NCBI GenBank assembly: GCA_022360955.1
Contig: JAKSBV010000231.1
Location: 1-35,736 of the forward strand
Direction of reading: 5' to 3'
DNA: 35,736 bases
Source of the DNA: Bacillota bacterium
Lineage (GTDB): Bacteria; Bacillota; Clostridia; SK-Y3
How positions within the stretch are numbered: the first letter of the stretch is position 1; every line of letters starts with the position of its first letter. The position numbers and the translations under genes were made by a program. The notes beneath the pieces were generated by a model. The model saw nothing but the letters and a program-made list of their open reading frames with translations. It did no database searches and was not told the DNA's origin. Shown piece after piece: positions 6,638 through 9,483 of the stretch.

Positions 6638-7410
6638 TCAAATATATTTTCTCATATGCATTAGTGCACTTTTTTCCAATCGGGACACCTGGGCCTGGGA
6701 AATGCCTATTTCCTCAGCGACTTCCATCTGGGTTCTGCCTTCATAAAATCTGAGATTCAAAATATGCTTTTCTCGATCATTTAATTTCCTCATCGCCTCT
6801 CTCAACGCGATTTCTTCCAGCCAGCTTTCATCATGATTTTTTTCGTCACTCACCTGGTCCATCACATAAATGGCGTCTCCCCCGTCGTGGTACACAGGTT
6901 CAAATAGGGAGATGGGATCTTGTATTGCATCTAAGGCAAACACTACATCTTCCTTTTTTAATTCCAGTTCTTTTGCAATTTCGGTAATCGTCGGTTCCTT
7001 TGAATTCTGATTCGTAAGTTTTTCTTTGACTTGAAGCGCTTTATAAGCGATATCCCGTAATGAGCGACTTACCCTTATGGAATTATTATCTCTTAAGTAT
7101 CTTCTGATTTCACCGATAATCATCGGTACGGCATAGGTAGAAAATTTTACATTTTGCGAAACATCAAAATTATCAATAGCTTTGATCAGTCCTATACAGC
7201 CTACTTGAAATAAATCGTCCACATATTCTCCTCTATTATTAAATCTCTGTATAACGCTTAATACCAATCTCAGGTTTCCTCTAATAAACTCTTCCTGGCG
7301 GTCATGTCCCCACGATGAATTCTTTCAAACAATGCTTCTTTTTCTTTATTTGATAAAACCGGTAACTTCGATGTATTTACTCCACATATTTCAACTTTGT
7401 TGATTAGCAT
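6638..7410 (-). CDS. sigG: sporulation sigma factor SigmaG, interrupted by an apparent 1-base deletion
   Basis: SigmaG directs late forespore transcription. ATG 7410 has an RBS GGAGGG seven bases upstream and begins MLINKVEICGVNTSKLPVL, a typical SigmaG N-terminus. That frame stops after about 46 codons. The rest of the protein (region 2: LVLSVIQRFNNRGEYVDDLF; region 4: ISQAQVSRLEKSAL) continues in another frame to 6638. Restoring one G at the CC pair 7294-7295 (GCCAGG-AAGAG to GCCAGGGAAGAG) gives the expected AREEFIRGNLRLVLS junction and a 257-residue protein, the normal family length. It is either a sequencing error in a short homopolymer or a true mutation. It is the third gene after spoIIGA and sigE, with its own promoter and leader hairpin. 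Confidence 0.88.
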
Positions 7411-7418
7411 ATCAAAAC

Positions 7419-7469
7419 CCTCCAGGTAATCAAGATAATTTCAGCGTCAATATCATTATTACCCTGAGG
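7419..7469 (-). promoter_or_regulatory. leader hairpin sequestering the sigG ribosome binding site
   Basis: On the minus-strand RNA, CCTCAGGGTAAT (7469-7458) can pair with ATTACCTGGAGG (7430-7419). That is 12 positions with one mismatch and one G-U pair, around a 27-base loop. The 3' arm contains the sigG Shine-Dalgarno GGAGG. Read-through RNA from spoIIGA-sigE would carry both arms and hide the RBS. An analogous arrangement is described upstream of B. subtilis spoIIIG. Read on the + strand, the same hairpin is followed by nine Ts and could also act as an antisense terminator. Confidence 0.6.
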
Positions 7470-7482
7470 TTTTTTTTTATAC
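7455..7482 (-). promoter_or_regulatory. candidate SigmaF-type promoter for sigG
   Basis: The -35 GTATA (7482-7478) and -10 GGTAATAAT (7463-7455) match the SigmaF/SigmaG-type consensus (GYATA and GGNNANAMT). The spacer is 14 bases, one less than usual. Transcription would start near 7448, inside or after the 5' arm of the leader hairpin, so the resulting mRNA cannot form that hairpin and its RBS would be free. Confidence 0.6.
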
Positions 7483-7666
7483 GACAGTATTCGGTTATAA
7501 TGGGCACATAGCTTTTTAAATATTTGTACTATATTAATCTGCCTTAATCTTGCTTCGTTTTTCTCCAAATTACTTAAAATTATTGTCAAATTGTTAATAT
7601 GGACCGTTTATGCAATTTCCGCACTCCCGGTATGATTAGGAACGTGAATTTACCACCGCTGTTGCC

Positions 7667-8398
7667 TCATATCATTCTACTGATCTCTTTTTTTAATCTA
7701 TTGATAATTCTCTTTTCCAGTCTCGAAATATAGGACTGAGAAATCCCGAGCATATCTGCAACCTCTTTTTGTGTCTTTTCCATTCCGCTTTCCAAACCAA
7801 ATCTCAGCTCCATGATTTTCTTCTCTCTTGCAGAAAGCTTTTTCATTGCAATGCCCAATAATTCTTTATCCACTTCATCTTCAATGCTTCTATATATTAA
7901 GTCGTTTTCTGTCCCTAAAATGTCGGATAATAGGAGTTCATTCCCGTCCCAATCAATATTTAAGGGCTCATCAATAGATATCTCCGTTTTAGCCGTATTA
8001 TTTTTTCTTAAAAACATTAAGATCTCATTTTCGATGCACCTCGAAGCATAGGTAGCTAATTTAATATTTTTTGCAGGATTAAAGGTATTAATGGCTTTGA
8101 TCAGTCCTATTGTGCCGATAGAAATAAGGTCTTCAACCCCGATACCCGTATTCTCAAATTTTCTAGCGATATACACCACCAATCTGAGATTTCTTTCTAT
8201 GAGAATCCTCTTAACAACAATATCCGTTTTATCCAATTTTGATATTAAATAGCTCTCCTCTTCCGAATCCAAAGGAGGCGGTAAAGCTTCACTGCCTCCG
8301 ATATAATGTATCTCTTTACAGATGTATTTTCTCAACGTTTGTAACAGCAATGCATATTTGATTGACAGATACCCCTTAGCGTTTGATAGCAATTTCAA
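7667..8398 (-). CDS. sigE: sporulation sigma factor SigmaE, made as inactive pro-SigmaE
   Basis: 243 residues. It is the early mother-cell sigma factor. The N-terminal ~30 residues form the amphipathic pro-sequence, followed by the conserved processing region [12 protein letters not shown] (residues 32-43), where SpoIIGA cleaves in the family. Sigma-70 region 2 ([21 protein letters not shown]) and the region 4 HTH ([20 protein letters not shown]) are intact. Start is TTG 8398 with AAAGGAGAG upstream. It lies 176 bases after its protease gene spoIIGA, as in B. subtilis, and is followed by sigG. There is no sign of damage, in contrast with sigG. Confidence 0.97.
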
Positions 8399-8574: not shown

Positions 8575-9483
8575 TCAGGAAATAATTTCAGGATGCAGCA
8601 AAGCCCTATATTCCTCACTCTTAGAAAGTTTTTTATTATAAATGCCAATAATGATATCCTTTAAATCTTTTTTTTCCGGCCCTTCCAGTATCTCAATTTC
8701 GTCGGGTTTGAATCCTATCAGCATACCGTTTTCTTTGCCAAGAGAGGAAAAGGGAATCAGTCTGAATCTGGACACCCAATCGGAATTGGACATAATACTG
8801 GTAATCAAGCCTAAATCGTTTTCGCTGCATTCATTGAAAATTTTTTGAATTTCCTGTGGCAGCAGCCCTTTGATCGCTTGAAATTCCACAATAATGACCG
8901 GGAGATTGGATATAGGCTCATATAGAGAATTTCCGGTATCTAAAAGGGCATTAATGCATATACTTTTATTATCAAACATTATTGAAAGCGGTATGTACAA
9001 ATTTTCTTTATTAATTTTGATGCCGATCAGCTTCCAGGTAATGCTGATAACGATATATGCGGTGACACAAGATAAAAGCAATGTCTTCCAAGGCAAATTA
9101 AAATAGATAACCCCATTGCTCAAAATAGCACCTATTGAGGCCCCGATATTGGTAAAGTAAAATAATCCTAAAGCGGCACCTCCAAAAGTAAAAGAAACGA
9201 TATAAAATATACCTAAAACCTTTAAAAATGCTCTCACCTTTTCTATATTATAGGTAATGGCTATTAATAGCATTGAAAAGAGCAGTTTCGCAATAAGGGT
9301 ATAATATATTTGAAAAGCCGGAAAAAACATAACAACGGCATAAACTGCGCCTACACAAGCGCCAATGAATAATCTTACAACGGATGTTTTGGTCCTTGAA
9401 ATCTTGCTTGTCGTCCACAATAAAATATAATTTATCAATAAATTTACCGTAAACAAGACATCAATGTATATAACCGGCTTCAC
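8575..9483 (-). CDS. spoIIGA: SpoIIGA, membrane aspartic protease that processes pro-SigmaE
   Basis: 302 residues. The first ~150 residues hold five or so membrane helices starting with the family-typical VIYIDVLFTVNLLINY. The C-terminal half is the cytoplasmic protease domain with the catalytic LLDTGNSL motif (Asp182-Thr-Gly184). The protease is activated across the septal membrane by a forespore signal (SpoIIR in the family) and cleaves pro-SigmaE, encoded next in the operon. Start GTG 9483 has a GGGGG site at 9491-9495. The upstream 770-base spacer carries two repeat elements, with the candidate promoter only at its far end. Confidence 0.96.
   Translation of the reverse strand: MKPVIYIDVLFTVNLLINYILLWTTSKISRTKTSVVRLFIGACVGAVYAVVMFFPAFQIYYTLIAKLLFSMLLIAITYNIEKVRAFLKVLGIFYIVSFTFGGAALGLFYFTNIGASIGAILSNGVIYFNLPWKTLLLSCVTAYIVISITWKLIGIKINKENLYIPLSIMFDNKSICINALLDTGNSLYEPISNLPVIIVEFQAIKGLLPQEIQKIFNECSENDLGLITSIMSNSDWVSRFRLIPFSSLGKENGMLIGFKPDEIEILEGPEKKDLKDIIIGIYNKKLSKSEEYRALLHPEIIS

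Follow-up and report, generated by a model that had tools for sequence, protein, structure and literature searches.

The sigmaF/G-type sigG promoter sits within the 5' arm of a predicted RNA hairpin in which the Shine-Dalgarno sequence of sigG serves as 3' arm, and judging from sequence comparison and computed folds we consider it likely (roughly 80%) that this hairpin silences sigG on RNA reading through from upstream, limiting sigmaG to promoter-started transcripts. Transcripts reading through from spoIIGA-sigE, produced in pre-divisional cells or the mother cell, would carry both arms and close the ribosome site by folding; forespore transcripts, initiated at the promoter itself, would begin past the 5' arm and leave that site open. 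The element would thus insulate translation of sigG from the upstream operon and tie sigmaG synthesis to initiation by sigmaF or sigmaG. The arrangement recurs far above chance across Bacillota, with arms that are adapted to each other.

The window, that is, the whole stretch of 35,736 nucleotides that we analysed, carries spoIIGA-sigE and then sigG, directly adjoining on the same strand with a gap of about 256 nt between sigE and sigG. A sequence-only reading had placed a sigmaF-type promoter overlapping a hairpin that masks the ribosome-binding site at 7419-7482; these coordinates are correct, and every part lies on the minus strand:

8575..9483, minus strand: spoIIGA, first gene of the upstream operon (NCBIfam TIGR02854, 247.1 bits)
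7667..8398, minus strand: sigE, the upstream gene and source of read-through (NCBIfam TIGR02835, 399.9 bits)
7483..7666, minus strand: sigE-sigG intergenic stretch 5' of the -35 element; no intrinsic terminator found in a scan of this stretch (score 0)
7478..7482, minus strand: GTATA, the -35 element of the sigG promoter (sigmaF/G type), from sequence
7472..7474, minus strand: AAA, outer stem extension, pairing with 7416-7414 in the predicted fold
7464..7477, minus strand: 14-nt promoter spacer AAAAAAAACCTCAG with the anti-Shine-Dalgarno CCTC, from sequence and spacer shuffles
7458..7469, minus strand: hairpin 5' arm CCUCAGGGUAAU (= CCTCAGGGTAAT), running from the spacer into the -10 element and present only in read-through RNA
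7455..7463, minus strand: -10 element GGTAATAAT (consensus GGNNATA[AC]T), sharing bases one to six with the hairpin 5' arm
7448, minus strand: predicted transcription start of forespore sigG RNA, placed by promoter geometry 7 nt past the end of the -10 element
7419..7430, minus strand: hairpin 3' arm AUUACCUGGAGG (= ATTACCTGGAGG), ending in the Shine-Dalgarno GGAGG (7423-7419), from sequence and fold
7408..7410, minus strand: sigG start ATG, 8 nt past the Shine-Dalgarno (MLINKVEICGVNTSKLPVL...)
6638..7410, minus strand: sigG, frameshifted, with TIGR02850 matches in two frames (translation, NCBIfam)

Between sigE and sigG, GTATA-N14-GGTAATAAT gave the top score in a promoter scan, and most relatives have a -35 element of the G[TAC]ATA type. 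The promoter pattern alone is not specific, as a pattern scan returned 7 exact matches compared with 8 for the reversed control. The frameshift in sigG lies near 7293-7296: the N-terminal frame runs from 7410 to a stop near 7270 (MLINKVEICG...GDMTAR, then stop) and the remainder of SigG follows in another frame, on to 6638. The gene is intact in near relatives, and the frameshift represents either an error in this 522-contig assembly or a recent loss that left a broken gene. Rfam covariance models gave no match in the window, and the plus-strand fold was nothing notable (z -1.7).

The two 12-nt arms (7469-7458 and 7430-7419) pair at 11 of 12 positions, with one A-G mismatch and one G-U pair. 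Three outer and four inner pairs extend this core, and the predicted stem covers GGAGG except for its first G, which sits opposite the A-G mismatch. The 85-nt leader starting at the -35 element folded to -21.6 kcal/mol compared with -11.0 ± 2.7 for shuffled sequences (z -3.9), and none of 200 shuffles was as good. Short RNA from 7449 reached -3.8 kcal/mol (z +1.3), no better than shuffles, with the Shine-Dalgarno open. The sequence-only reading likewise had this RNA stay open, but it had the start fall after most of the 5' arm, and the predicted start at 7448 clears the whole main arm. Given that start, the hairpin is unable to form in promoter-started RNA. Opening the Shine-Dalgarno was computed to cost 11.6 kcal/mol in read-through RNA versus 2.3 kcal/mol from 7448, both values being for isolated RNA at 37°C and leaving aside transcription kinetics and ribosomes translating sigE. 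When the promoter side was shuffled and the sequence past the start left unchanged, the opening energy was 3.4 ± 2.1 kcal/mol; none of 40 spacer shuffles and none of 40 dinucleotide shuffles reached the native occlusion.

For the survey, sigG loci were gathered from relatives of the window, from named genomes and from a phylogenetically uneven sample of the phylum, and parsing left 196 with a confident promoter. At each locus we computed the Shine-Dalgarno opening energy in read-through RNA (from the -35 element) and in promoter-started RNA (7 nt past the -10 element). A switch was called where read-through RNA needed at least 3 kcal/mol more than the short RNA and the native promoter side came within the best 10% when compared with dinucleotide shuffles; all sequence downstream of the start was again kept. 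We found a switch in 83 of the 196 loci, where about 9.4 were expected. In 32% of the 196 the native promoter side beat all 40 dinucleotide shuffles, compared with about 2.4% expected. As a control for sigmaF/G promoters, gpr yielded four usable promoters only, and 260 ordinary gene starts used in its place gave a rate of 6%. A second set comprised 69 newly fetched loci (61 usable) from the class of the Paenibacillus-like genome G079, taken to be Bacilli, and was run through the same pipeline except that 60 shuffles were used; 52 of the 61 had a switch (about 4.8 expected), with thresholds chosen ahead of this set, when the wider one had already been given a first look. With a switch scored in 85% of Bacilli loci and 42% of the wider set, the device is not special to the lineage of the window, where the sequence-only reading had called its preservation notable. 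A scored hairpin is missing from more than half of the wider sample. Rules were used to assign start codons, start sites and Shine-Dalgarno positions, and some assignments are wrong (e.g. L016, L034), which tends to hide switches; some loci with an anti-Shine-Dalgarno further upstream (L013, L055, L139 and L209) failed the test because energy was measured from the -35 element.

Column-based covariation (MAFFT and RNAalifold) was uninformative because the register of arms and bulges varies from relative to relative, and we used an alignment-free swap instead, in which promoter sides from other, less similar genomes were put into each locus. In switch loci, foreign promoter sides lowered the mean opening energy from 11.7 to 5.4 kcal/mol, and in 46% of these loci the native side exceeded each of the 40 foreign sides. 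The window itself gave a weak result (12.5%), because its frameshifted protein left close relatives in the "foreign" set. The sequence-only reading had also proposed looking for conserved pairing, and pairing is indeed kept in relatives despite sequence drift: among close relatives the arms read GGTAAT/ATTACC (L016, L019), GGTAAT/ATTGCC paired through a G-U wobble (L021, L022) and GGCAAT/ATTGCC (L043). In distant lineages different, unrelated arm sequences occupy the same place (e.g. L163, L128, L048, L121, L204); those of L163 are GGCTCCATTCC/GGGGTGGAGCC.

These comparisons bear on two other readings. The complementarity could be a by-product, without function in RNA, of the sequences favoured in the promoter; this view gains from the overlap of the 5' arm with the -10 element, where the sigma factor dictates the sequence. 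Yet shuffling the spacer alone, with the -35 and -10 elements kept, abolished the effect in the window, and the native promoter side beat all 40 such shuffles in 27% of loci. Native arms also outdid those of foreign sigmaF/G promoters, and we regard a by-product as highly improbable. Alternatively, the fold might form and have no regulatory effect, with read-through negligible or silenced otherwise, through SpoIIAB, Lon or CsfB. Expression of sigG in B. subtilis does not need read-through, and SigG is also held down post-translationally (PMC5942855), both of which fit such a view. Recurrence across the phylum and co-adaptation of the arms argue instead for selection on the pairing, and we think a fold devoid of effect very unlikely. 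With this evidence of selection, a proposal made for a single species becomes a phylum-wide pattern.

A further possibility is that the main role of the hairpin is intrinsic termination (attenuation), so that read-through RNA ends before the sigG start and forespore RNA without the 5' arm continues. This predicts the same outcome, no SigG from read-through, and the stem in the window is followed by TTTT (GGAGG-G-TTTT); at least four T after the Shine-Dalgarno occur in 29% of hairpin loci versus 7% of those without. However, the T-run is missing in 71% of hairpin loci, many of which (L163, L048, L081) have none, and that in the window is short, with A-U pairs in the outer stem and a large loop. 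We judge termination unlikely as the main role, and in a minority of species a U-run past the stem could terminate transcription in addition. Masking of the Shine-Dalgarno remains our preferred reading.

We also compared the hairpin with intrinsic terminators between sigE and the -35 element at loci with sigE within 600 nt (shuffled control 2%). Terminators were present in 43 of 84 loci without a switch and in 5 of 69 with one (Fisher p 2e-9). After clustering at 95% SigG identity the counts were 35/67 and 3/36, and at 90% identity 12/24 and 0/18. Among the closest pairs differing in the switch, the terminator was confined to the non-switch partner in 28 and to the switch partner in 1. A SigE+SigG tree requires at least 32 changes of the switch state and at least 26 of the terminator state, and simulations of independent traits matched for clustering rarely reached the observed correlation (P at most 0.005). 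Edge-disjoint pairs gave 11 vs 5 for exclusion of switch and terminator, which is not significant (p 0.21), and neither was exclusion among treekit independent pairs on supported branches, with about 2 informative pairs. In the Bacilli set terminators were too rare for testing exclusion (4/60). The exclusion, its link only partly robust to phylogeny, is thus suggestive only, as is the conclusion that read-through is what sigG is guarded against. We lean slightly towards a phylum-wide need to separate sigG translation from the sigE operon that either of two interchangeable devices may serve: an anti-Shine-Dalgarno in the 14-15-nt spacer of the forespore promoter, in most Bacilli and many Clostridia, or an intrinsic terminator just 5' of that promoter, in many other Clostridia. 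Among the 84 loci with sigE adjacent and no hairpin, 41 had no detected terminator either, so insulation is not universal or was partly missed.

Several loci depart from the common layout. In L163, L027 and L180, sigG lies away from sigE, downstream of a different reading frame with the same direction (in L163 that of an MFS-like transporter), and keeps a strong promoter-embedded hairpin; insulation may not be solely against sigE. In L161, L198 and L182 a spoIIGA-like reading frame appeared by eye to be divergent just 5' of sigG, which would break the spoIIGA-sigE-sigG order there. The short leader of L037 and L039 has an extra long hairpin (GTATAGACAGT...ACTGTTTATAC) inside the loop of the read-through hairpin. 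In a Brevibacillus-like family (L094, about 2239-2359; also L117, L245, L253, L254, L255, L257, L258 and L273), the forespore sigG RNA starts with a structured leader of 75-213 nt. It has a closing stem GTTCCTA/TAGGAAC and, in most members, conserved CCAGA.AGTGG and GGCCTTTCAAGAC; a U-run and then a hairpin over the Shine-Dalgarno make up its 3' part. Rfam gave no match in L094, and we consider this leader a candidate cis-regulatory RNA of sigG.

Work on sporulation has long asked how sigmaG is excluded from the mother cell and from cells that have yet to divide. A switch working as predicted would set compartment specificity by the position at which the RNA starts, with no protein needed, and an anti-Shine-Dalgarno within a promoter spacer would be a compact way of insulating a gene inside an operon. 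The survey yields predictions for species without a short-RNA hairpin of the B. subtilis type, and the presence of two alternative insulators, hairpin and terminator, makes the read-through hypothesis directly testable by species comparison and part swaps.

A similar logic operates in phage T4 gene e (lysozyme) and I-TevI, where the ribosome site of a long early RNA is sequestered by a hairpin and a late promoter inside the 5' arm gives an open RNA. These systems resemble sigG in their working; the genes, promoter type and organism are unrelated, and the likeness is one of analogy only. The closest counterpart is B. subtilis spoIIIG (sigG), as the sequence-only reading, whose interpretation is supported overall, had noted. 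According to the 1988 and 1991 proposals as cited in PMC5942855, complementary sequences in spoIIG read-through RNA are predicted to pair and keep it from being translated, and the hairpin cannot form in PsigG RNA (Masuda 1988, Sun 1991). The window shares the gene, the neighbour and the layout with that case; the B. subtilis stem, as described there, has 20 or more pairs, that of the window 11 core pairs (12-nt core) with another 3 outside and 4 inside, and the start codon is GTG in B. subtilis and ATG in the window. We take the element in the window, on its sequence, to be an orthologous instance of the proposed B. subtilis device and so already known in kind. What is new here is the survey of the read-through hairpin; a search of the open-access literature found no published one. 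RNA of the kind that the hairpin would silence has been seen: three transcripts including spoIIGA-sigE-sigG occur in B. subtilis and C. acetobutylicum, with full-length and short transcripts of the locus reported in both, and two sigG promoters were inferred in C. difficile (Saujet et al. 2013, PMC3789822). When sigG is misexpressed in vegetative B. subtilis, sigmaG activity results and is toxic without CsfB (Mearls et al. 2018, PMC5942855). The same study described a small hairpin at the sigG ribosome-binding site that lowers translation 2-4-fold in B. subtilis. Like the hairpin in the window it hides the sigG Shine-Dalgarno, but it sits within the short RNA, whereas the short RNA of the window has no stable fold, which is consistent with the remark of Mearls et al. 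that the small hairpin is rarer or weaker in Clostridia (PMC5942855).
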